This document shows, in pieces, positions 5,315 to 56,600 of a stretch of DNA of 64,000 nt. Below the pieces are notes generated by a model. It did not search any database and was not told the origin of the DNA. It was given only the letters and a program-made list of their open reading frames with translations. Origin of the DNA: Tausonia pullulans (lineage: Eukaryota > Basidiomycota > Tremellomycetes > Cystofilobasidiales > Mrakiaceae); contig OX637627.1 in the NCBI GenBank assembly GCA_951802195.1, forward strand, positions 372,001-436,000. Reading direction: 5' to 3'. How positions within the stretch are numbered: position 1 is the first letter of the stretch; every line of letters starts with the position of its first letter. The translations under genes were made by a program, and so were the position numbers.

Positions 5315-8300
5315 ATGGCGACCCTCTCGTCCAAGGAGGCCGCCGCCATCCACCAACTCGAGCACCTTGCCCAAGAATCCGGTGGCGTCGTCGTCCACCC
5401 GTCCGAGGAGCAGCTCGCCGGGTGTCTGCTCGCCCGCTTCCGAGCTGACCTCCCCTATACTCGGATCGGGTCTTCGACGCTCGTTGTCGTCAACCCGCTC
5501 AAGGCGCTTGCGAACCTCAACGACGCCTCGGCGTCGGACTACGTCCAGAGGGAGTACGCCGACTCGAGTCCGGGCGCGGGAGGAACGATGCAGCCCCACC
5601 TTTACGAGCTCGCAGGCAGAGTCTACCTTGTCATGCGGAGGAGGGTCGAGAGCCAGGCCGTCATCTTTAGGTATGTCCCGAGCGAGCGAGAATAGTTTGG
5701 GTTCGAGCTAGCGGGCGTAGAGAGCGGACTGGACGGACGACGCGCGCGTTCTCAGCCAAGGGTGCCTTGCCCATTTGAGGAAGGAGTTATGGTTTGGCCT
5801 TTCCCTCCTTCTCCGCCCTTCCCTCAGACATCGGTCATACGCTCAGTGATCTGCTGCTCTGTGTAATGGGACGGGAGCGGGCTTAGAAGAGGGCGCGACG
5901 GAAGGCTAAGGAGCCGCCTGGCTGTCCTCGATCACACCCTGGTCCCGAACAGGCGGGGGAGAGGAGGCTGAGGCTAACCACCCCTGCTTGGTGGCGCGCG
6001 TCCTTTCTCTTGTTGGTACTCTTCTGTGGCGCGTCGTCACTTCTGCTGGACTCCGCGGACCTCTCTGGCTTCATCTCTTACTGTCTCTCGCAAGCTAGGG
6101 CAGCATCAGCTTGCGCATGCTCGCGCTCCCGGACGGGCCTTTCCTTCAGCCCCGCCTCCTCTCTCCCTCTCCCAGCTTCCCCTTTCTCGTCTATTCCCCC
6201 CCCCTCATTACTCGAATCAGCGCTGACCGCGGATTCTCCCCTGTCCTAGCGGGATCTCGGGGTCTGGCAAGACCTTTAGCTCGGAGCTCTTTGTTTCCCA
6301 GGTTCTTCGGCTCTCCTCGCACTCGCGTAAGGAGATCCGCGTCGCCGACCAGATCCGCGCCCTCTCGACACTCCTTGAATCGTTTGGCTCGGCCAAGACG
6401 GCAAGCAATCCGGCGGCGTCGCGGTTCGGCAAGCTCCTCGAGCTCCACTTCACAGACAAGGGTCGGATAGCGGGCGCTCAGGTCCTCCCTTTTGGGCTCG
6501 ACAAGTCACGTGTTACCAAGCTCTCGAGGGAAGAGCGGACGTACAACGTCTTCTACCAGCTCCTTGCCGGAGCGAGCCCGGACGAGCGGGACGCGCTCGA
6601 TCTTGACGAGCCCTCGGCATACACGCTCCTTGCCTCATCGGGTTGCTATCTTCTCCCTGGAGGCCCGCTTTCGGACGACCACGCCCAGATGGGCGAGCTT
6701 CGGGCAGCCATGGCTGCTCTTGGCTTCAAGCCGAAGCACGTCTCATCTATCTTCTCGCTGCTCGTCGCGATTCTTCTTCTCGGCAACCTCACATTCGAGA
6801 ATGACATCGATGGGCTTTCGTATCAGTCGGCGACGGTCACGAACCGGCTCGTGCTCAACGAGGCCGCGAACTTGCTCGGCCTTGCTGCCGAGGAGCTTGA
6901 GGAGGCGCTGACGAATAAGACCAAGTATGTCCGCAAGGAGCTCGCCTCAGGCTTCCTCACCGCCGAAGGAGCCGCCCTTCAGCGGGATGGCCTTGTTCGG
7001 GACCTCTACGCGATCCTCTTCGCGTACGTCGTGGAGCTCGCCAACCAGAAGCTCTACTCGACGTCACACACGATGCAGATCACAGTCTTTGATCAGCCGG
7101 GCTTTCAGAGTCGGACGCCGTCCGGGTCGACGCCGGCCTCTCTTATCGCAGCTCACGGCGAGAACGGGTTCGAGGAGCTCTGCTTCAACTTCTCCGCCGA
7201 GGTCCTTCACTCGACGTTCCTCCAGCGGGCATTCGATGACTCTGCTGGTTACTCAGCCGCCATCATCTCGGACAAGGTCTCCCTTCCCGCGGTCCTCGCG
7301 ATGGACAACTCGGCCTGCCTTGAGCTTCTACGCGGTGGCGCCGTCGGCTCGCGGGCGGACCGCAAACCCGGAGGCATCTTTGGCGCCATGGCCAAGGGTT
7401 GCTCTCGCTTCCAGCAGGGCAAGGCGAGCGAGGACAAGGATGAGGAGCTTCTCGATGACCTCACTCACAAGTTTGGCGCCCACCCGCTCTTCGTCACTGA
7501 GCCCAACGCCGGTGCTCCTGGCCATGCCGGCTCGTCGTCGCGGACTCTCTTTGGCGTGAAGCACTACTCCGGAGTGTGCTCGTATGACGTCAAGGGCTTC
7601 CTCGACAAGGATCTTGATGTCCTCGACTCGTCGCTTGTCACCCTTCTCCGGAAGTCGGCGGACCCCTTCGTCGGCAAGCTCGTCTCGGGCCCGAGCCTCG
7701 CCACCGAGGTTCACCCACAGGACCAGCGGACGGTTGTCCAGGCCCAGGTCTCCATCACGCCCTTCCGCCGGCCGACGCCCGTCACCCCCCTTCCGAGCGC
7801 ATCGTCCATCGCGCCGGCTCTCCCCGAGCCCATCCTCGAACAAGGAGAGATTTACCCGGTTTCGACCCAGCTCAACGCGACGCTCGCCGAGCTTCTTACC
7901 TCGCTCCAATTGAGCCGGACCTGGGATGTCCTCTGCATCCGGCCGAACGACAACAGCCTGCCCAACTCGTTCGACAAGCGGCGCGTGAGGGAACAGATCC
8001 GGAGCTATCTCCTCCCGGACCTCGTCAAGCGTCGAGCGAGCGAGTTCATTGCCGACCTCGAGTTTGCGGACTTTGTCACGAGGTACGGGATCGAGCCTGC
8101 CTCAGATTCGGACGGCGTTGAGGCAACCGTCAAGGCCTTTGCCACCGGCCGGTCGTGGACGGAAGGTCTCGACTTTGCTGTTGGGGAGCATCGCGTCTGG
8201 CTCAGCTATGACACGTGGCGCGAGGTGGAGGATGATCTTCGGGAGGAGGAGAAGCGTCTAGGTGGAGGCAACGGGACCATCGAGGACGACCACGAGGTTC

Positions 8301-11300
8301 TCCTTCCCGAGCGCGGCGAAGGCGTCCCGAACTCGCCTACGACACCCTGGACGGGCCGGTCGGGCGGTGGAGGAGTGAATGAAGTGGGCGAGAGCACGGA
8401 CGATCTACTGCTCAAGAGGACGACAACCACTGGAACGGGCTACCATGAGGCCTCCGGTGATCAGGGGGGGTACAAGCAGGCGGGGTACGCCTCCAGCTGG
8501 TGCGTGTCAACTCCTCTGTCTCTCTCCTGCTTCTCGACTAACAACGCCTCATCCTTGTTCTCTCTCCCAGGGTCGAACCGGAGAGGTGGAACAACAATCG
8601 GCCGTCGAGCCCGCTCGGCTCGTTCGCCCCGCCCCAGGTCGTTGATGCTACCGACGGCACCTTCGGCGATAAGTCAAAGTCGGACCCGACGAACGACGGT
8701 CTCCTCGTCAAGGAGAAGGGCAACATTGAGATCGAGGAGATCAACGGCTCGCGCCGTTGGTGGGTCCGCTTCGTCTGGTTCCTTACTTTCTGGGTGCCCA
8801 ACTTTGCACTCATCAAATTTGGCCGGATGAAGCGACCGGACGTGCGAATGGCGTGGCGCGAGAAGCTCGCCATTTGCATGCTCATCTTTTTCCTCTGCGG
8901 TGTCGTCATCTTCTACGTCGTCATCTTTGGCCGCCTCCTCTGTCCGCGATTTGACGATGCCTGGAACACGTCTGAGCTTACTGAGCACGCCCAGTCGAAC
9001 ACGTACTATTCGGCGATTGCAGGTGCGTCGCGGGCCTTGTCATTTCTCTCTTTCTTAACAAGTACTGACGACACAATCATTTTCTAGGCAAGGTCTACGA
9101 CTTCACCAATTTCTGGCAGGGACAGCACTCGGACGTGTCTGCCTATCCAGTCACGCACGAGATGATGCTCGAGCTCGCAGGCACGGACCTCACCAACTAT
9201 TTCCCGATTCCCTTCAATATTGCCTGCCCTGGTCTCGTCACGGACGAGACGCTCACACTCACAAAGAACTTCACCGCCGTTGCGGACTACGCCGTTCACT
9301 ACTCGGGCAAGCAGCAACCCTACGGTTCGGCCGCGCTCCAGGACGATCAATGGTACCCGAACAAGTTTCTCCCTTATATCAAGGACTATTACAAGGGAAC
9401 ATTCGTCTTCTCCAAGAAGGATATTCGCGGTCAGGCGGACTCTGGAGCCAAGTGAGACCGAGATCTTCCTTCTTCGTTCGTTCTCGCACCTCAGGGACTA
9501 ATCATCTTTTTTCTCGTCCAGGACCTGGGCGATCTACAAAGAAGGCGTCTACGATCTCTCCGACTATTTTGCGACCATTACGGCGCAAGGCTCGTCGTCG
9601 GACGGTGCCGCGGCGTACTCATTCCTTGACGATACTGTCACCTCGCTCTGGCAGAACACGCCCGGCCAGGACATCACGAAAGGCGTGGAGAAAGCGCTCG
9701 CCAAGATGAACGAGACGTACGCCGACCAGCAATATACGTGTCTCCGGAACGCATTCTATCTCGGCGATGTCGACTTCCGCGAGAGCCCACGGTGCACGGC
9801 CAACAACTACATCCTCCTCAGCTTCTCGATCCTCATTATGCTCACCATTCTCGTCAAGTGTGAGTTCGAGCGGGAGCGGGGCGCATCTTGTCTTCTCTTG
9901 CCAGCAGCAGCAGTTCTGACACGCGATCTTCTTCTACCAGTCCTCGCTGCCCTCCAGCTCACAGGGAAGCGTAATCCGGAGATGCTCGACAAGTTCGTCA
10001 TCTGCCAGATCCCTTGCTACACCGAGGGCGAGGAATCGCTCCGCAAGACAATCGACTCTCTCGCCGCGCTCAACTACGACGACAAGCGCAAACTCCTCTT
10101 TGTCATCTGCGACGGCAACATCATCGGATCCGGCAACGACAAGACGACCCCGCGGATCGTCCTTGACATTCTTGGCGTTGACCCCAAGCTTGACCCAGAG
10201 CCGTTACTCTTCAAGTCCGTGGGCGAGGGCTCCAAGCAGCTTAACTACGGCAAGATCTACTCGGGTCTCTATGAGTTCGAGGGCCACATCGTCCCTTACA
10301 TGGTCGCCGTCAAGGTCGGTCGGCCGAGTGAGCGGTCCAAGCCAGGCAACCGAGGAAAGCGCGACTCGCAGATCCTCCTCCTCCGGTATCTTAACCGTGT
10401 CCACTTCGACGCCCCGATGGCTCCGCTCGAGCTCGAGATCTACCACCAAATGCGGAACGTCATCGGCATTGACCCAGCATTCTACGAGTACCTCTTCCAG
10501 GTCGACGCTGATACCGTGGGTGCCCCCACTTTCCCTGCTTGCCTCTGATGCGGATTGCTAACTTATGTTCCCTTTCCCCCAGTGCGTTGCCCCCGACTCG
10601 CTCAACCGCATGATTGCCTGCACGATCGATGATCAGAGCATCATCGGCATATGCGGAGAGACCAAGCTTCAGAACGAGACCCAGTCTTTCACGACGATGA
10701 TCCAGGTTGGTCGATTTCTCTCTTTGCTGTCCTCTCTACTCGGGCCTGTCTCAATGATCGTTCTCCTCTCCCTTTCCTCAGGTGTACGAGTACTTCATCT
10801 CGCACCACCTCGCCAAAGCCTTTGAGTCCCTCTTCGGCTCCGTCACATGTCTCCCTGGATGCTTCTCCGTGTACCGTCTTCGCACGGCCGACAAGGGTCG
10901 CCCCATCATCATTTCTCAACGGATCATTGATGACTACTCCGAGAACAACGTCGACACGCTCCACAAAAAGAATCTCTTCTCCCTCGGAGAGGACCGATAC
11001 TTGACGACGCTCATGATGAAGTACTTCCCTTCGTACAAGATGAAGTTCACGCCCGACGCCATCGCCTACACGGTCGCTCCTGAGTCGTGGTCGGTCCTGC
11101 TTTCGCAGCGCCGGCGATGGATTAACTCAACGATCCACAATCTCGCCGAGCTCTACTTCCTCCCGGACCTCTGCGGCTTCTGTATTTTCTCCATGCGGTT
11201 CATCGTCATGCTTGATCTTGTCGGAACGCTCGTACGTCGTCGTTCATTTTCACGCCGCCTCCGGCTTGTCTGACATTCCGCGCTCTCTCCCTCGTAGATC

Positions 11301-13405: not shown

Positions 13406-16369
13406 ATGGCCCCCCTCCACTTTTTGCCCGAGCTCATTCCCTCGGATGCCAGCGAGGGCCTCCTCAGTGCCCTTACCCTCCTGGGCCCGATCCTTGTCCC
13501 ATTTGCGTCGCTCTCGGTGCTCCCTCGCTTCGTGCGGTCCTATTACGTTGCCTTCCCACCCTCGACGCCCTCGAGCGAGATCTTCGAGGTTCTCAACAAT
13601 GGTGCCCTCAAGGTCGTCGTCTCTCAGCCGCAGCTCGCCGAGCTCGAGGGCGTCGACCGCTCTCGGCTCGTCCTTGATCTCGAGCTCACCCAAGCGGCGT
13701 CCGTCAGCGACTCGATCCGCTCGCTTGTTGGTGGTGTGCTCGTCCGGTCCAACGACAAGGCCGATGAGGACTTGAGCCTGTTCAAGACCCTTGTTGCAGC
13801 CTTCCCGCCGTCCAAGAACGACGTCTTTGTACTAGGCCCGACTTCGGCGCCTCCTCCGACAGCCGCGACGCTCAAGGCGCTCGTGGTCCAGGGCGTCTCG
13901 CCTGTCATTCCGACTAAGTTCCTGACCACCTCGGCTGCCTCCTCGGCCGCCCAGATTTCCATTGCCGATGCCTTCCTTGCCCCGCTCACGTCGGACCGTC
14001 CTGACGGCCTCTTCCCTACGATCGTCACCTCGTCGAACCACTCGTCACGGCCGCTCGGTCTGGTCTACTCGTCTCGTGAGTCGGTAGCCGAGTCCATCAA
14101 CACCGCTCGGGGCGTCTACCAGTCCCGCAAGCATGGTCTCTGGCGCAAGGGCGAGACCTCGGGCTCGACCCAGGAGGTCGTCGCCATCCGCGCGGACTGC
14201 GACTCGGACGCCCTCGAGTTTGAGGTTGTCCAAAGCGGATCGGGCTTCTGCCACCTCGGCACGACCCGCTGCTTCGGCTCGGGCGAACTCGAGGGTGTCG
14301 CCAAGCTCGAGGACACGCTCCTCGCCCGGCAGAAGGACGCCCCGGTTGGCTCCTACACGGCGCGTCTCTTTGGTGACGACGCGCTTCTTTCGTCCAAGAT
14401 CATGGAGGAGGCCGAGGAGCTCTGCGAGGCCAAGACCCCGGAGGAGGTGGCGTTCGAGGCGGCCGACCTCGTCTACTTTGCCATGGTCCGGTGCGCCAAG
14501 GCGGGCGTTAGGTGGAAGGACGTCGAGGCGGCGCTCGATAAGAAGTCGCAGAAGGTCAAGCGGAGGAAGGGCGATGCGAAGCCGAAGTGGGACAAGTCAG
14601 CCGCTGCCGCTGCTGCTCTCCCTGCCTCGACGACCAAGACGCCCACGGAGCCCTCGTCTGAGCCTCCCGCTGCTACACCCGCTCCCCCACTGCCCAAGGC
14701 CGAGGTTCTCGACCCGGCGTCGCTCATCAAAATGAGGACGGTTCCCGAGCTCTCGACGCTTTCGGCCGAGGAGCGTGCCGCCCTCCTTCTTCGTCCCGTC
14801 CTTGACTCTACTTCGATGATCGCTAAGGTCCAGCCGATCATCTCCAAGGTCCGCACCGGAGGCGACAAGGCCCTCGCTGAGCTCACCGCCGTGTACGACC
14901 GCCAGCCGCTCGCGGCCGAGCCCGAGTGGTCTAACGTCCTCCTTCCGCCGTTTGCGCCCGAGGCGATGGCTCTTCCGGCGGATCTCAAGGCTGCCATCGA
15001 CACCGCGTACGCCAACGTCCGCAAGTTCCACGCCGCTCAGGCCGAGACTGAGCCTCTCGTCGTCGAGACGCAACCCGGTGTCGTCTGCTCGCGGTTTGCG
15101 CGGCCCATCACCCGTGTCGGTCTCTACGTTCCCGGCGGGACTGCCATTCTCCCCTCCTCGGCCATCATGCTCGGTGCTCCTGCTCAGGTCGCTGGCTGCG
15201 AGACCGTCGTCCTCGCGACCCCGCCGCGGGCCGACGGCACGATCTCGCCCGAGGTGCTCTACGTCGCGAGCCTCGTCGGAGTGACGTGTGTCGTCAAGGC
15301 CGGTGGCGCTCAGGCTGTCGCCGCCATGGCGTATGGAACGGAGACGATCCCTAAGGTCGATAAGATCTTTGGCCCGGGTAACCAGTGGGTTACGGCGGCC
15401 AAGATGGTTGTCCAGAACGATATTTCGGCCCTTGTTGGCATTGACATGCCTGCCGGTCCCTCTGAGGTCCTCGTGCGTGGCCTGTCTCTCCCTCGTCGGC
15501 ACCGCGACTCGACTGACGTTCTCCCTCTTCCCCCCCGCTTGCTCAGGTCATCGCCGACTCGACAGCGACGCCGGCATTCGTCGCCTCGGATCTCCTCTCC
15601 CAGGCCGAGCACGGCGTCGACTCTCAAGTCGTCCTCCTCGGCATCGACCTCACCCCCGCCGAGCTCGCCGCGATTGAGGATGCCGTCGACGCCCAGGCTC
15701 GGGCTCTCCCGCGGTGCGACATTGCCCGGCAGGCTATTGCCAAGAGCATCATCGTCCAGGTCAAGACCCGCGACGAGGCGCTTGCCTTCTCGAACGACTA
15801 TGCTCCCGAGCACCTCATTATGCAGGTCAAGGACGCTGCTGCGCTTGTCCCGGGAGTTGTGAACGCCGGATCCGTCTTTGTCGGCATGTACACACCGGAG
15901 TCGTGAGTTCCCTTGCTGGCTGGCTACATCTGTGACGTGGATGGCTTATTGACCACCGATCCATGCGACCTGCAGCTTTGGAGACTACGCTTCGGGCTCT
16001 AACCACACCCTTCCGACCTAGTGCGTCGCCCGCTCGCTTGTCGCTGTGCTTGCTATACATCCCAGATCATCCCTGACCTCCCCCCCCGTTCTTTTTTACA
16101 TAGCGGCTTCGCCCGCCAGTTCTCCGGCGTCAACACCGTCTCATTCCAGAAGCACATCACTTCGCAGGAAGTCACCGAGGAGGGCATGCTCGGCCTTGGC
16201 CCGACGGTCATTCGGCTCGCCGAGTGCGAGGGCCTCGAGGCTCACGCGTACGTCCCTTCATTCGCTCGTTGGGACACATAGCAGTACAATCACTGACGTT
16301 CCTTCTTCTTCTGTCCCCTCTAGCAACGCCGTCCGCGTTCGGCTCGCCAAGCTCGCGACGAGGGCTTAG
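13406..16369 (+). CDS. HIS4: Trifunctional histidine biosynthesis protein (PR-AMP cyclohydrolase / PR-ATP pyrophosphohydrolase / histidinol dehydrogenase)
   Basis: Catalyses the second, third and last two steps of histidine synthesis in the cytosol. The first exon (13406 to about 15474) is very long. It encodes a divergent N-terminal segment and then the cyclohydrolase signature ([14 protein letters not shown] and [13 protein letters not shown], about 14185-14275). The pyrophosphohydrolase follows, with [23 protein letters not shown] cut here to its core EEAEELCEA near 14405, then an Ala/Pro/Thr-rich linker. Histidinol dehydrogenase begins near 14730 ([40 protein letters not shown]). Four or so introns cluster in the 3' part. 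Later exons carry [22 protein letters not shown] and the end LAKLATRA, with TAG at 16367-16369. All three activities look intact. This fused layout is normal for fungi. Confidence 0.96.
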
Positions 16370-26207: not shown

Positions 26208-29200
26208 ATGGTCCGGACTACGATCAAAGGTCGTGGCGAATGGCGAGCCGGCTGGCCAGCATCAGCTGTCGCTCCTGTAGCGGTCAAGCACCAGTACGGC
26301 GGCTACCGGTTGCTCGACTATGATGACGAGTCGGTCCTCGCCGCGGATGACGACTTCCTCAACGACGTGCTTCTTGTACGACTGTCTCTCTCTTCTACTC
26401 AAATCGTCACCCGAGTTGGCTCGGGCCGCTGAATTTTTGTGGGTATGCCTCTCAGGACACCTTGGCTCAGACGATGGGAAGGCCTCGTGAGTCTCAAGGG
26501 CGCGTGAGCGAGTGAGGAGCGCGACGGGAGGGGACGCGACGAGCCAGAGGACGCGACGAGCCTGGGGAAAGACACTGACCGAACGACCGTCCTCTTACAA
26601 TTCCAGTCGGCGTGCACAAGAACCTTCCAAATTACCAGCGGGTTCCTCACGATGAGAACCAGTTGCTGACGCTTGTCAAGGAGGTGAGAGCCTTGACCCT
26701 TCTCACGCGTCGGTTCGTCGGAAGGTTGACCGAGACGCGCCGCGTCCGCTGTTCTCAGCTCATTGTGCTACGAGGCAGCGTCCATCTTGCCGTCGACTAT
26801 TTCACACAGTATGTCTTCCCACTTATGCACCTTCAACAGAATAAATTTGCTCATATCAGGCCCTAGACTGCCCTATGTCCGGGCTTACATTGAGGGCAAG
26901 ACGGAGAAGGAGCTGCTGGCTTTCAAGGGGTCAGTCTCGACGAGCCGGGTGTGGTAAGACTCATAGACTTACGAAGAATCCCTCCACAGCCTGGCGACGA
27001 CCTATTTCAACCTTTATACCCAGCAAAAGTCCGTTCCACTCATCCGCACACCAAGTGCTATGCGCAGGCTGACTGACCTGACTGTTCAACCTCATCCAGT
27101 CCCTTTGAGATTGGCAAAACGGACCGCTACTCGTCCAAGACGGGCAAGGTAGAACTTGCTGTCTATGCGACTCGCTCTGTTGAGCGCGGGTCGCTCATTC
27201 AGCTCATCGAGGGCGCCCTTGCCCGGCTCAGCCCGCAGGAGGAGGCTCGGCTCACTGGCGAGGACCCTGTCGGTCCATCTCCACTGGAACACTCTCAGAA
27301 AGGGATGCAAAGCATGAGTCCGGAGTCGTCAGGCTCAGTGGCGGCGGGCAGATCTGTCAAGGGCAAGGAGAAGGCCGGCTCGTCTGAGCCTCGAGCGGCC
27401 GGAGCGATGAATGTCGTTGCCGCCCTCGACTTTTCCCTCGTACTCTCGTCGAGTAAACAGTGCTGGATGCGCTTCAACGGGCCTGGGAGATTCCTCAACG
27501 TAAGTGGGCGCTGTGCTTGGGTCGGCTATCGGCCGCCTGTCTCTGACGGCCCATAATGACAGCACGACTGCGACGCCAACGCCCGGCTGAGAGGCCTCAA
27601 AAATGGGATAACTTTTGACGTTATTCGCAAGCTCAACCCTGGGGAGGAGCTCACCTGTGACTAGTGAGCTGCTCTGGAGTCCATAGCCACGTTGTCGACA
27701 GGACCAGACGAACTAAGAAGTCGACTTTACTATAGTGGAACCAACTACTTTGGCCCTGATAATCGCGTTCGTTCTTTGCTCTCTCTTACTCTTCTCTTGT
27801 TCCAATTTACCCGGGACTCCAGCTGACCGTGCCATGGTTTTCGTCGACAGGACTGCATGTGCGCCACTTGCGAGCGCCGCGGCGAGGGTTACTGGAAGCT
27901 CTCTCCCTCACCCCCGCTCGTGGCAGCGGATTTCGTCAAGGCCGAGTCGCTCGCTGAGAACAGTCCCAGTCCCTCATCGACGACCGGGGGCGTGGACGAT
28001 GCCCCTTCACTCCGGACTTCAAGACGCGGTCCTGTCCGAGCCCAGGTGAACCTCGAGACACACTGCGAAAAGTGTCTGGGACGGCGAGATCCGCCGATCA
28101 AGATCAAGCTCTGCCCGTCTGAACCCCCGGCGCGGGGGTTGTGTCCTCGGTCAGTCCTGCTTGGCACTCCCACGGCCTCTCACGTCTGACCAGACCTCTC
28201 CGCTTGCTCCGGTCCAACCCACAGATGCGCGCGCCACTGGATTATCTACGGACAGAAATGGCCTTACCGACCGCAGCCAGTTAAGGGCCTCCCCCCCTGG
28301 ACGATGCGGATCAAGAAACCCAGAGTTCGAGGTCTGCCTGGCAACTCTACTGCTGCCTCCTCCGCCAATCCTCTTTCAGCCTCGATGAAACGCCCATGCC
28401 CAACAAAGGGCAACGATGCGGTGCTCAAAGCTAGCGAGGACCGCAAGCCTTTGACTGGCAATCCGGGCGACGATGAGAATGACGAGTCAGACGAGTCAGA
28501 CGAGTCAGATGATCCGACGCTGCTCGTTGGCACGGCGACGGCCCGATCTCTGGCCAAGATGGATGCCGCGGACAGGGCTGGCGCGCATGGGCTCATGCGA
28601 GTGGACAAGGCGTCGTCAAGGAGAACGAGGCTTGGGGCGGAGGCGGCGGAGAAGACGACCGGTGGTGGCAAGAAGAGGCGCAGGGAGGATCGCCGGAGTT
28701 ATTCGATTGATCAGGTGCCGTCGAGCGATGTACGTGGTGCTCTCATCTGGAAGCTCTGCTGACTCAAAATGGAGGCTGACCGAGCTTTGCTTTCTTCCAG
28801 CCCAACATGATCGCGCTAGAATGCCGAATAGCTGGAGTCAGGCTTATACGAGTCAGCTGCTCTGGCGGACTAACGTGAGTGTCGATGGGCTGTGTCATGG
28901 CCCGGGCCGAACGCTGATGCAACTGTCTTCGTTCCTTCAGATACGTCAACGCCCTTCCGCTCAAAATCGTATGTCTCGATCGCATTTATGGGAGACAACA
29001 TTGATTGACCCCGTCTCTGCAGCTCGGCGACGGTTGGAGCCCCTACAGGCTCAGCTTTGATAGACTCGAGATTGAAGGTGTTCCGCTCCTTTACGCACAG
29101 CTTCTCCCGGGGGCGATGGAGGGCATCTGGTGGGTCTTGGCTTGGCTTCCCTGACCCTTAAAGGCGACCCTGATTGCCCCATTGTAACATTATTCAGGGT

Positions 29201-31313
29201 GCCTCTGGATGTGGCTATCTCTATCACCAAGAACTGTGAGAAGGATCATTAAGGTAGCAATGCACCTCGCTGATGCCTCGTTCTCCTATCTCAGACGGAA
29301 TATATCCCCTTCTCGAGCGCTTTCTCGCTACCAAGCCCATTCTGGGAGCTCCCCCTGCGCCGACAGATGCGCCCTCCCTCAAACAGCGGGCTCCGTCGAC
29401 AACTCAGCACACGCCTGACTCAGACAATGACGAGATTGACCCGATGCTGCCACCTCCGACAGGCATCAACGAGAAGCCGATCGTTGTGCCCCCGCATACG
29501 TTCGTGCCGCCCAAGCCTGTCTATAGTACGAAGAAGTATAGCCTACCACCCCCCATCCCCAAGAGCGTCTGGGCAGGCCAGCGGCCGCTCCTGCCGGAGC
29601 TTGTGGAGTACGAGACAGATTATGGTGATGAATCACCTGCATCGGTTAGTTGGCTTTCTCCCTGCTCTCATCTCTATCACGGCACTGATCCGACTCCTCC
29701 AACCGAACAGCTTTTGTGCTATCGGGCCGAGGTCATGCACAACGGCACATTGATCACGCTTCTGCGTAGAACCGACGGGTGCGTCTTGGATTCTCCGACA
29801 AGTGCCAGCTGCATGTGCTGATCAGCGAACTATCGTCGTTCCACAGCTGGCTCCACCTGAGCTCCCTCTTGCAGTAAGCCCACCGTTTTGTCATAAGGCT
29901 TGTTCTCAGCTGGCGCACCGTACTGACCCTTATGTCGCCCTAATCCTAGTCTTGCCGGCCTAAGCGAGCGCCAAAAGGCCAAAGTCTACCACACGCTCAA
30001 GGGAAAACCGACGAACGTCTGGCAATGTAAGTGTCGCTCTTGAATATTCAAGGTCTGGGTGAATGACGAGACTAAGTGGAGCTTTCTCTTAGACAATGTT
30101 CCATGGGGAGCCGACCCCCAGCCGTGGGCGGGCATCTGGTTAGCATTGAGCGTGAAACACGACTGGGAGCGATGGATTTGATAAAGCTCGCTCTTTCTGC
30201 ACTTCCCCCTTGCAGGTGTCCCCGGACGCGTGCCATGGCACTATGCGAACACTTTGGCCTTTCTGGTAAAGCGTGTTGCTATGTGCGATCTTGTTTCGGG
30301 CTGACTCTCTGTCTAATGCTCCACTAGATCTCGTAAAGAACCTGCTCCTCCCACAGTCGGACCTCCAGAAACTGGTACCCATCGATGGGGACAGCTCGTC
30401 CGACGTCAATGTCAGTCCAAGGACCAAGTTTCCCGACGCACTGTCTTCCCCCTTGGAAATGCCTCTGGCAGCAGACTTGGTGGACTTGGAGACGAAGACA
30501 GAGACGCCCGAAGACACCGAAGTCGACCAGTTCGTTGGCGGCACAAAAGACGCCTCGTTCCAGGCCCCCGCCGCAAATCAACGCGACAACTCGGAGTCGG
30601 AATCGGACATTCAAGTGGTCGAGATTCTTGAACCAGATGGCTCATCCCCTAACAAGCACCAGCTGCGGCAGGCCATCAGTCGAGGAGAGCGAATCCGTCC
30701 CGAGGAGCTCGACGATCTTGACGTGGACCCTTTCGACTGCTGGGACAGCGCGCTTCCATTATTGGAGAATCAGGACAAGCAAGCCGTCTTCCAGCAGGGC
30801 GACTGGAGCCCCTCCAAGCCTCAGGCGTATTCCCATCACGACGTCAAAAGTGAAAATGGCGATGGTACATGGGATGGTTTGTCGCACATGGACGTCGACC
30901 ATCCATGCTCATCTGGGGCAGCAGCGCCTCTACCGCCTCTCACATCCGATCCTTGGTCCAGACCGACGCCGTCCAAGGCTTCCGCCACCCACCCTTCGTC
31001 CTCCTCTCGCAAGATCCGAACGTATGATATCAACGCCAAAGACGACGAGGAGGATGTCGAGATGGAGATCTCATTCGACGAGGACATCACCATTCTCGAG
31101 ACGACGGCAAGCCTATCAAACCTCGCAGCGGCGAACGCGCGCCAATCCATGCCGCCGGCGATAATGAGGCAGAACTTTGACCAGCTCGTCGTCCAGAAGA
31201 AGCTAGCGCTTCCGGAGACGTTGCACCTCGCAAAGAAGGATCACAACGATGGTGAGGATGAAGTGAAGCGCATTAAGGCGAAGGAGAATTTTGTCGATCT
31301 CGTCTCGGACTAA
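26208..31313 (+). CDS. SET9: SET9/KMT5-type histone H4-K20 methyltransferase fused to two tandem APSES-like DNA-binding domains
   Basis: Predicted to methylate histone H4 Lys20. Residues from the ATG at 26208 show the SET9 helical N-region (YVRAYIEGKTEKELLAFKG). The SET domain follows: TDRYSSKTGKVELAVYATR, RFLNHDCDANARL, GEELTCDYGTNYFG. The post-SET cysteines are DCMCATCERRGEGYW, then HCEKC and a second zinc-like CPRCARHWIIYGQKWPYRP, both typical of fungal SET9. After a basic acidic linker the frame is spliced (28729 to 28801, phase 0) into two APSES-like modules at about 28801-29340 and 29711-30370. An acidic tail then runs to TAA at 31311-31313. About 20 exons and roughly 1,200 residues. 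SET9 of other fungi normally stops after the second zinc region, so the APSES part is unusual. SET9 identity is firm. The fusion is strongly suggested by splice sites but needs transcript proof. Confidence 0.85.
28801..29340 (+). other. APSES-like domain, repeat 1 (within the SET9 gene)
   Basis: Spliced from five exons: 28801-28873, 28941-28968, 29022-29129, 29198-29235 and the start of 29295-29645. It reads IALECRIAGVRLIR, TYVNALPLKILGDGW, a beta-rich wing, then GIWVPLDVAISITKN and YGIYPLLERFL. The pattern matches Mbp1/Swi4/StuA-type APSES domains. There, a YVNAT-like helix is followed by a G-T-W-V-P-L segment and an amphipathic helix ending in ..LKPLF. DNA binding is inferred from the fold, and the usual basic helix residues are weaker here than in Mbp1. 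Confidence 0.7.
29711..30370 (+). other. APSES-like domain, repeat 2 (within the SET9 gene)
   Basis: Spliced from exons 29711-29778, 29847-29873, 29950-30026, 30093-30138, 30216-30265 and the start of the exon at 30328. It reads LLCYRAEVMHNGTLITLLRR, TDGWLHLSSLLHLAGLSE, RQKAKVYHTLKGKPTNVWQ, then PWAGIWCPRTRAMALCEHFG and LSDLVKNLLL. This is closer to canonical APSES than repeat 1: the RR-x-DGW-L plus the K/R-rich recognition-helix region are both present. It has one extra intron (after WQ) compared with repeat 1. Confidence 0.75.
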
Positions 31314-42449: not shown

Positions 42450-43987
42450 TCAATCCCAGTTGTACCGTAGAAGCGTCGTCTCTACCACCACCGGCCGATC
42501 CTCCTCATCCTCGTCCTCCTCGTCATCATTATCGGCCGTATTCATCCCAGAAACAGCCGCATCACCAGTGTCCTCTAAACCAGACACACCCTCTACTGCA
42601 CTTGCCTCCAGATCCCACCCAAACCGTCTCTGGACGAGCTCGCGGACCTGGTCGTATCGCTCCGCCGCCTCCGCGCCCCGCCAGGCACTTGTCCCGAGCT
42701 CCTCTACGGCGTCGCGCCACCAATTCTCTGATTCGGGGAAATGCGCGGAGAAAAAATCCTCTGGCAGCCATGCGAGCTGAGCATGTACGAGTGCGAGGAG
42801 CTGGCCGTAGAGCGACGGGAGACTGTCGGAGAGCGTGGTGGCGATGGAGGGGAGTGGGAGGATTGCCGGAGAGAGATGAGCGCGAGCGAAAATTTCAATG
42901 ATGCGGCGGTAAGTTTGGAGAAGAAGGGAGGGCGCCTGGAAGAGGATCGCTAGGGGAAGGAGGAGGGCGAGTTGGACGAGGAGATGTTCCGGGTCTTGTT
43001 GGGAGGTAGCAGGCAGCAAGTCAGCGTAATTCAACTCTGTACGCATTCAGTCAGACGCAAGGAACAACACACCTCCTCCGCATTGCCGCTCAACAATATC
43101 CCAGAACAGCCACGACTTGTTGCGAGCCCACTCCGACCTTTCCTGCCCAATCGCGCCCTCACGCCACGACTTCCTCAGATCGAACCGCGCCCATCCGACG
43201 GCGGCACCCTCTCCCTCTCTTTTTGCCTCTCCCTCTCCCTGTACTCGCTCACCGCCAAGCGAGGTCCCCTTCATCGCTCGCTCGACGTCACCCGTGTCGA
43301 CATGGCCGTCCCTCTCGCGCCGGTGTCTAAGGACCCGCTCGGCCGCGAGTGTGTCGCCCACAGCGCCATCCAGATCCTCACCCTGGCTGAGGGTTAGGCC
43401 ATCGAGATCCCAAAACCGACCGCTTGCATCAGCGGCGCCTTCTTCGACGGACGCGGGCCCGAGAACGCGCTCGAGCGTGGCGTCGGTGATTTTGAGGGTG
43501 GGAGGGAAGAGCGACTGCCACGCCTGGAAGCCCGCGTACGGGTAGGGCGCGAGCGTTGGATCAAGCGTCTTGAGGACGTCAGGTGAAATGATTTCAGAGA
43601 CTCTTGGAGAAGGAACAAGTGACTCGGCGTGAGTGTCGAAGGTCCTGTTAAGCACTCGAGGCTCTGCTGGGGGGGGCGGCACGTAGAAGACGGTCCCGCG
43701 ACGCGGTATCGGGATGCCCGAGGATCCAGAGGCTGTCGACGGGGCCTCAACGGTGAGGATATGAATTCCGGGAGGAAGCATCTTGAAGCCCGAGCACTGC
43801 TTGACCTTGTTGAATCTAAAAAGCAGTCAGACGAGATCTCGATACACGCCCGGTCGCTCACTTACGTCCCGTCGAGGCCGAGCACCGAGCCATGAGGCAG
43901 GTCAGCTATGAGGAGAAAGCTCGTCTGGGCGTGGAGCGCTGCCAACTGCTCGGGCGTAAGGGACGAGAGAGGGTCGCATGAGGCCAT
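42450..43987 (-). CDS. AAR2: AAR2 splicing factor family protein (U5 snRNP assembly)
   Basis: AAR2 binds Prp8 in the cytoplasm and guides U5 snRNP maturation before Brr2 joins. The start ATG at 43987 gives MASCDPLSSLTPEQLAALHA. The N-terminal beta domain has FLLIADLPHGSVLGLDGT, an intron, then FNKVKQCSGFKMLPPGIHIL, which is the family signature (fold entry G-x-D ... F-x-G-x-K-M-x-P-x-G-x-H). A middle region (YAGFQAWQSLFPPTLKITDA) follows, and after a second intron near 43040 comes the helical C-terminal domain: ELNYADLLPATSQQDPEHLL, TYRRIIEIFARAHLSPAIL, WLPEDFFSAHFPESENWW. The end is acidic, finishing RYNWD with TGA at 42450-42452. Three exons. All expected parts are present. Confidence 0.92.
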
Positions 43988-54296: not shown

Positions 54297-56600
54297 CTAG
54301 AACTTCCTGCCGTGCTTGCCCCCTTTCCCTCCCTTGCCAGTCGTCACCAACCCGTAAGGGTCGTTCCTCGAATGGTTCTTCTTGTGCTTTTTCCCACTCT
54401 TGTGCAGGCCGTGCTTTTGATGCTGGTGGTGGGCGGCGCCGTTCATGGAGCGATTCGAAGTGTAGAGCGGGAAGGCCGCGGCAGCCGTTGCAGTCGAGGG
54501 CACCGTCGGGAGGGCGACGGTCGAGGGACGGATCGGGAGCGCAGGTGGACCAGCATCGTCGTCGTTGCTGTCCTCCTCCTCAGATGAATTGGCGTCCGAG
54601 AGCTTGCGCTTGCCGAGGGCCTTGGGCGAGAGAGCCGGCTGCTGCGTTTCTCCGATGGCGGCGGGCGCAGTCGGGAACATCGGCTCGACGAAGTGCTTCT
54701 GGGGCGACGAGGGCCCGGTGGCAGAGGACTTGACTGCAGGAAGCGACGAGTGGCCGTTTAGGCCGTTCACGACGTTAGGGAGCGTCGGCGGCGTGAAGGG
54801 GTTCTTGACCTTGTTGCTGCCGCTTGAACCGGCGATGGCGGACGCAAGATTGGCCTTGGCGTCACGTTGGTAGAAGAGGACGTAGGCATCCTTGAGGCCG
54901 AGAGGCGCCCGCTGGCCATTGCCGATCATGGCGACGTAATTGTCGTCGAACGAGTGCCAACGGCCGTCAGTCGAAACTGACCGAGCAGTGTAGTGGCCTG
55001 AGTGGGGTCCCCCACCAGAGTGGCAGACGACAGCGTAGAGCTTGTACTTGGCGCCGCCCTGACTCGGGGACATGTACGGCGAGATGTCGAACTTTTCTTC
55101 GTAGTGAATTTCACCGCCGATCTTGCCACCCATGGGCGTGAACCGCTTGAGGTGAATGACGAGCGTCTTGGGCGCCTCATGGACCGACATCTGCTTAGTG
55201 GCGTTGACGAGCGTCTTGCACCTGAAGTAGTCGGGCGTGAACATCAGTTTGAGTGCTGCCTCCGCCGCCACCGCAGACTAGAGACCGACAAACAACGAAC
55301 TTTTCACACTTGTACTTGTTTTGACCCTCAAGCTTGTCCACGGCGATAAACTTCTCAAACGCATTCCGGACGCTCTTGCAGCCGCGAACTTCGACGCTGA
55401 TGTCGAGGATGGCGTCGAACGTATCGCTAGGGTGGCCGCACTTGAGGCACGTCACACGCGAGCGGAGCTGACCGCCGAAGAGCTGGTGAATTGAGGTCGT
55501 GTACTTGAGCTCGGCGGGGATCTTGCTGTGAATGCGTGGAGGGTTCAGCGTTGGACGATGGTCAAGGGAGGGGGAATACGTACGCGATTGGACCGAACGG
55601 GTGCAGTTCGGCGTTCTGCATGGCGTCCGTGAGGAAGCGGAGGAACTCATGCGAATCCTCCTGGCGGCCTATCCGGAAGTGCTTGGCGATCTCTGAGGGG
55701 AGGCGCGTAGAGAGTGGGAGCAGAGGTCAGTTCAGCAGCCCTCTGCACGTCATCCTGTGCGTATGCGTCCTCCTAGACGCGTTTTCGACGATGGACTCAC
55801 TCCTCAGTGGGTTCGTGATGACTGAGGGCGTGTAAGACGCGTTCTGTTGTTCCCTGTCAAAGTGCCAGTGCCCGATGGCCCGCATGGCGCAGAGAGCGCA
55901 GAAGCCGCCATTCTTCGGGTCCGCCTTCACCGTGCCTGATGAAGATGGCAGTCAGCTACCAGCAGGCAACCTCAATGAACCAAGGCAGATGTAGGGACAA
56001 CCCACAGGCTGGTCCGTTGATATGGCTTTTGAGCAACGTCCAGAGGCCCGGAGTGTGAATGACCGCCTGGAGGACCGAGTTGAGATAGCACGTGTTGCCG
56101 ACGTTGTTGAAGCCGAGGCCAACCTTGCGTCGCGTCGGTGGGAAGCCGAGGGTGAGGGGGCCTTTGTAAAGAGCCTTGCTGTTGCCGGAGGCAGCGATGG
56201 AGGCATCCGGTCGTTGAGACTTCGGAGGCGTAGGAAGCGCCGAAGTCGACGCGACAGCCTGCTTCGCCTGGAAAGAGGAGCGATGAGGGAAGATGTCAAT
56301 ATATGGTCCGCCTCTACATCTAGGCTAACGACGCCTCCCGGACTGTCCCCAAAGAGCAGGGCAGCGGACGGGTCGTAACACAGGCGGGAAACTCACCGAG
56401 GGAGGAGGCGGGTTAACCTCAAGCCAGCCCTCTTTCGCGACGAGGCCGCTCCCGCCGAGCATGGACGTCTCCTGAAATTCGAGTGGCTCGGCGAGAAGTG
56501 TTCGGAGGGCATTGCTGTCCATGGAGGCGTTCCGGGAGAGAGAGAACGTCCCAGGCATGGTCGGACCAAACGTCGACGACGAGGTGACAGCGGCGGTCAT
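54297..56600 (-). CDS. Ubiquitin carboxyl-terminal hydrolase (USP36/USP42-like)
   Basis: Cysteine protease that removes ubiquitin. On the - strand the start ATG is 56600 ([17 protein letters not shown]). After a disordered leader the catalytic Cys box is [20 protein letters not shown] (near 56080-56140). Then come [15 protein letters not shown], the [16 protein letters not shown] box, a zinc ribbon ([12 protein letters not shown] ... NKYKCEKC) and [17 protein letters not shown]. The catalytic His box is [17 protein letters not shown], with HSFDDNYV and AYVLFYQRD. The C-terminal tail carries acidic ([19 protein letters not shown]) and very basic clusters ([14 protein letters not shown]) ending KHGRKF at 54297, suggesting nucleolar targeting. 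Around seven exons. Catalytic residues are complete. The USP36-like label rests on the core and basic tail. Confidence 0.92.

Follow-up and report, generated by a model that had tools for sequence, protein, structure and literature searches.

On the plus strand of a 64,000-nucleotide (nt) window from the basidiomycete Tausonia pullulans (assembly GCA_951802195.1, contig OX637627.1, positions 372,001 to 436,000), the locus at 26208..31313 likely encodes a fusion of a SET9/KMT5-type histone H4K20 methyltransferase with tandem APSES-like domains. Computation yields one spliced frame that holds a KMT5-like catalytic core with its motifs and two modules whose similarity to APSES domains goes beyond chance. 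This fusion had been proposed from the nucleotide sequence (referred to below as the original prediction), and it is backed by the splice signals, by the gene finder and by the profile comparisons. The fuller reading, in which a single gene encodes a KMT5-type enzyme with two C-terminal APSES-like winged-helix modules for chromatin docking and a long acidic tail, is in our estimate evenly balanced. Coordinates are those of the window, and the features of the gene lie on its plus strand.

Manual splicing of the locus gives 22 exons and 21 GT-AG introns of 54-120 nt, leaving 1204 codons open up to the end of the frame at 31313. Residues 1-588 derive from exons 1-11 and residues 589-1204 from exons 12-22. 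A simple gene finder for which 12 other genes of the window, with 101 introns, served as the training set arrives at precisely this model and its 21 introns. These training genes are predicted and uncurated and come from an earlier finder round seeded with the fused gene; the penalties of the finder, including the cost of a start, were set by hand. In all three rounds of an earlier version the gene was fused as well, with 20 introns, the last round reading through the intron at 29645-29710. When the donor at 28730 is forbidden, the gene splits at 28762/28807 and the score falls from 113.1 to 98.9. This margin of 14.2 nats between the fused and the split model needs caution because about 11 of them are the hand-set start cost.

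The two halves are joined in phase 0 by intron 11 (28730..28800), whose length of 71 nt and junctions (28729/28730 and 28800/28801) are as originally claimed. It combines the donor GTACGT with the acceptor TTTCTTCCAG, which CTGAC sites precede by 21 and 38 nt, and it contains the TGA (28760-28762) that ends SET9 if the intron is retained. Scored with leave-one-out matrices from the other 20 introns of the gene, intron 11 ranks fifth among the 21. An equally good intron with a branch-point-like motif occurs in none of 15,960 dinucleotide-shuffled stretches of 110 nt. Among 399 plus-strand stretches sampled from the window it occurs in three, each of them a predicted intron; the same scan recovers intron 11 itself. 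The matrices for both comparisons were built from the predicted introns of the window including those of the fused gene, and excluding the latter barely shifts the scores of intron 11. In an earlier scan, which took random real stretches and kept true introns, 33 of 2000 were as good.

The first half of the protein (exons 1-11, residues 1-588, 26208..28729) is predicted to be a SET9/KMT5 (SUV4-20)-type H4K20 methyltransferase. Its ten best matches among PDB sequences are KMT5B/SUV420H1 or SUV420H2 (E=3e-24 to 1.2e-21, KMT5B being the best), and the next family is SETD2 at E=0.0055. Pfam detects the SET domain alone in the whole protein (E=1.9e-9) and scores it at E=7e-10 in the isolated half. 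The SET domain (residues 163-311) and the post-SET cysteine cluster CMCATC (residues 322-327) span 27158..27871. They are followed by the CPRCARHW zinc region (residues 418-425, 28142..28240), visible in the sequence and interrupted by intron 10. The spliced protein thus carries the complete SET9 core that had been read from the DNA, namely NHDC (residue 276), GEELTCDYG, CMCATC and CPRCARH, and KMT5B aligns with it over the NHDC and CxCxxC segments. This arrangement of SET and post-SET core, NHDC and cysteine cluster is shared with fungal SET9/Kmt5 and animal KMT5B/C (SUV4-20). Near the end of the half, a basic run KKRRR (residues 569-573, 28670..28684) is a possible nuclear localisation signal. 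The 23.9-Mb genome yielded no second SET9 copy, with all eight matches among the best candidates scored lying at the gene's own locus; fungi are likewise described with a single enzyme (PMC10553808, seen in part).

The second half begins with the two modules, d1 (residues 591-685, exons 12-16, 28807..29338) and d2 (residues 788-887, exons 17-22, 29711..30359). Both score as APSES-like beyond chance in a profile built from Mbp1 and three domains of the same genome, two SBF-type and one termed L012, the tail itself being left out. With HMMER, this tail-free profile gives 19.1 bits for d1 and 27.4 bits for d2. The best of 20,000 shuffles reaches 10.9 and 10.4 bits, respectively, and none attains the real scores (13,391 shuffles of d1 and 15,287 of d2 were scored by HMMER, the remainder receiving no score). 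Alignment with hhalign to the same profile yields P=1.9e-7 for d1, spanning 32 of 95 residues, and P=3.6e-8 for d2, spanning 78 columns. The closest single relative of d2 is the domain SBF-A of the same genome (25.3 bits, 0 of 5000 shuffles). Not every single-sequence score is decisive: for d1 against d2, and for each of them against L012, 1 to 3 shuffles in 5000 do as well. In ungapped comparison with Mbp1, the score of d2 is reached by 2 of 2000 shuffles and d1 has 15 of 72 residues identical. As in Mbp1, Swi4 and PCG2 of the SBF/MBF family, the domains are colinear and hold the G-x-W-x-P core. Counted from the helix-A aromatic of the x-V-N-A (or like) segment, the tryptophan of G-x-W lies 44 residues away in d1, Mbp1, PCG2 and SBF-A and 49 in d2. 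Pfam detects no ankyrin repeats in the fused protein, a difference from these regulators.

The claim of two APSES-like modules therefore stands by profile comparison. A Pfam KilA-N match, which the original prediction had also named as a check, is not obtained at E up to 10, either for the whole protein or for d1 and d2 alone. Several database results weigh against the reading. In a PDB search with the tail, d1 or d2, Mbp1 is reached weakly (E 0.028 to 1.8), and for d2 it is outranked by an immunoglobulin-binding protein (E=0.0053). A joint profile of d1 and d2 places three Bqt4 chains at the top of the PDB list (E 0.035-0.064), followed by a capsid protein (0.07) and Mbp1 (0.073); all of these are weak, and unrelated proteins are mixed in. 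Because of such E-values, the APSES homology rests on the profile tests. The protein database gave no match for the fused region 1-900 among 8000 candidates or for the SET core among 73 candidates, in a collection that seems to be without spliced fungal proteins, and scans of viral and prokaryote contigs gave no relative. The sole protein match of the tail, among the 8000 top word-sharing candidates, is P0001, a 346-residue frame over the last exon with 99% identity. Within the genome, no second copy of the tail was found, with all seven matches among the best candidates scored at its own locus.

Other APSES-type sequences are present in this genome. Two SBF/MBF-type domains with the wing KVQGGYGKYQG (G000:C8:502018-502197 and G000:C6:452402-452491) apparently represent the Mbp1/Swi4 set of the fungus; a Pfam KilA-N search of the genome returned just the former of the two. 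The third gene, L012 (G000:C1:1765550-1765792), is APSES-like with a non-standard wing (DWCNAS ... GTWVPL) and matches Mbp1 with 28% identity over the match (E=0.0066).

The function of the modules was considered in the light of the PCG2-DNA structure, in which the contacts include H53, K56, K62, R65, Q82, Q89 and T91 and the recognition motif is QxGxGxxQ (PMC4333399, seen in part). These seven contacts, which were scored with S23 and T51 of the same paper left out, have the same letters in Mbp1. By position, SBF-A retains six of the seven, d1 two (R65 and Q82) and d2 none, R65 being replaced by K; at the position of Q89, d1 has E and d2 has A. Unlike Mbp1, Swi4 and PCG2, the fused protein has no QxGxGxxQ wing anywhere along its length, and the 20-loop region of d1 appears by eye to be shortened. 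In the N-terminal domain of Swi6, a missing 20-loop, a shorter wing and an altered charge pattern accompany the loss of DNA binding (PMC4333399, in the part seen). The idea that the modules tether the writer to specific DNA is thus not borne out, since most PCG2 contacts are gone in both modules and the fold binds protein in Bqt4 and no DNA in Swi6.

Bqt4 of S. pombe is an inner nuclear membrane protein whose APSES-type N-terminal domain serves protein interaction at telomeres and heterochromatin, with Rap1, Lem2 and Sad1 as partners (PMC6379675, seen in part). The domain also shows moderate, unspecific DNA binding (PMC10375492, likewise seen in part). On account of the lost PCG2 contacts, of these properties of Bqt4 and of its first place, weak as it is, in the PDB list of the joint profile, we infer a docking role for the modules: they would hold the enzyme on chromatin chiefly via protein partners, as in Bqt4, or through non-specific DNA contact, and not by Mbp1-type base reading. 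The likeness to Bqt4 has its limits. Its residues F46, R48 and F61 (as given in the part of PMC6379675 seen) align to L, R and L in d1, in a weak alignment that would count against this docking, with both phenylalanines apparently not kept. Bqt4 has a C-terminal transmembrane helix, whereas the best 19-residue Kyte-Doolittle mean in residues 888-1204 of the fused protein is 0.62, with no transmembrane-like stretch found there. The fused protein holds no Bqt4-binding motif, and a clear Bqt4 was not found in the genome (one match, E=0.36).

Specific DNA reading by the modules, which would steer H4K20 methylation toward promoters that carry a defined motif, is distinctly unlikely in our assessment. 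It draws on the likeness to Mbp1 and to the genome's own SBF-type domains, on the retained equivalents of Q82 and R65 in d1, and on d2. The latter is net basic (11 K+R versus 6 D+E), so that it may bind DNA, and it carries LLRRTDGWL at the place of VMRRRSDGWL in SBF-A. StuA-type APSES domains lack the QxGxGxxQ wing and still read DNA, and for this reason the missing wing is not decisive. What tells against specific reading is the combination of the absent motif, the substitutions of Q89, the low contact counts of both modules relative to SBF-A and the seemingly shortened 20-loop of d1 with its parallel in Swi6.

The start codon at 28807..28809 (M591) bears most directly on whether the locus holds one gene or two. 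Its context, CCCAACATG, is as good as that of the SET9 start, ACCAACATG; it is located 6 nt past the acceptor of intron 11, and d1 starts exactly there, as it would in a stand-alone gene. The APSES domain of Mbp1 is likewise found at the very start of the protein. With a good start context at ATG 28807 and d1 beginning at this codon, the tail probably used to be a gene of its own, and the ATG is likely a relic or an alternative start. The tail may still, or also, be produced alone, which would count against the fused reading. A strict two-gene arrangement, in which SET9 stops at TGA 28762 and ATG 28807 opens an APSES-like protein, appears fairly unlikely to us. It would require overlapping transcripts or a promoter within the last SET9 exon, and intron 11 would either lie in the 5' untranslated region of the second gene or be a match by chance. 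Besides the start context and the position of d1, this arrangement is favored by an in-frame stop upstream of ATG 28807 (at 28777) in the unspliced sequence and by the known tendency of gene callers to merge neighboring genes. However, the gap from the unspliced SET9 stop to ATG 28807 is merely 44 nt, as opposed to 219-1069 nt between the genes of the 10 predicted same-strand neighbor pairs of the window, splice signals as good as those of intron 11 were not met by chance in the shuffled and sampled stretches, and a SET9 transcript from which intron 11 is spliced is fused by necessity. The original prediction saw no space for a second promoter, which is fair as regards the 44-nt gap. A promoter could nevertheless lie inside the SET9 coding region, and the start context of ATG 28807 is good.

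A fusion that is real with modules that are functionless, decaying passengers, so that SET9 acts alone, seems highly improbable. The modules have indeed diverged below Pfam detection and have lost DNA-contact residues. Against decay, 11 exons keep 616 codons open, the tail scores no lower than the SET9 half once the gene is split apart (53.4 and 45.5 in the gene finder), and the G-I-W-x-P core is intact in both modules at its 44- and 49-residue distance from the helix-A aromatic. The acidic C-terminal part (residues 888-1204, 30360..31313) contains 63 D+E and 30 K+R. SUMO-interaction-like stretches are seen there, SESESDIQVVEIL (residues 965-977, 30591-30629) and DEDITIL (residues 1127-1133, 31077-31097), under a loose pattern that matches at 12 places in the protein.

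Returning to the single gene with docking modules, its origin may be pictured as follows. The tail, with ATG 28807 as its start, would formerly have been its own gene, and it would have become fused to SET9 when the short spacer and the SET9 stop codon turned into intron 11. Transcripts retaining this intron would give a SET9-only form that ends 10 residues past the donor. S. pombe Set9 is complexed with the PWWP partner Pdp1, which is needed for all H4K20me, and few other Kmt5 partners are known (PMC10553808, in the part seen). Unlike this separate partner protein, the docking module would here be built in, as a counterpart of the recruitment that Set9 may get from Pdp1.

A Zymoseptoria study proposed that de novo H4K20 methylation needs a signal beyond the marks examined (PMC10553808, seen in part). 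It is possible, if doubtful, that the fused protein is a self-recruiting H4K20 methyltransferase whose module pair recognises chosen sites and supplies such a signal in cis. The feature recognised may be a motif in the DNA, or else a partner at the telomere or the nuclear envelope. How fungal Kmt5/Set9 locates its sites would become directly testable with a fused docking module. Across 229 fungal genomes, a survey of SET proteins describes the Suv4-20 group with one N-terminal SET domain alone, for which it cites a figure covering 20 representative species (PMC9692433, seen in part). The protein described here differs by about 600 further residues with two APSES-like modules. KilA and Pucciniomycotina are unmentioned in the main text of that survey, and no described SET9-APSES fusion was found among the open-licence papers that the searches listed. 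Such tails may have been overlooked in fungi because Pfam misses these modules; if the self-recruiting reading holds, SET9-APSES-like fusions may be commoner than noticed.

The window contains further recognizable exons. A one-frame exon at 13406-15472 carries PRA-CH, PRA-PH and histidinol dehydrogenase domains (HIS4-like). In neighboring predicted genes, an exon at 1245-1796 resembles the largest subunit of RNA polymerase (Rpb1 domain 3), and one at 6434-8497 encodes a myosin motor. On the minus strand, an AAR2 exon is located at 43074-43814 and a ubiquitin carboxyl-terminal hydrolase exon at 54297-55220.

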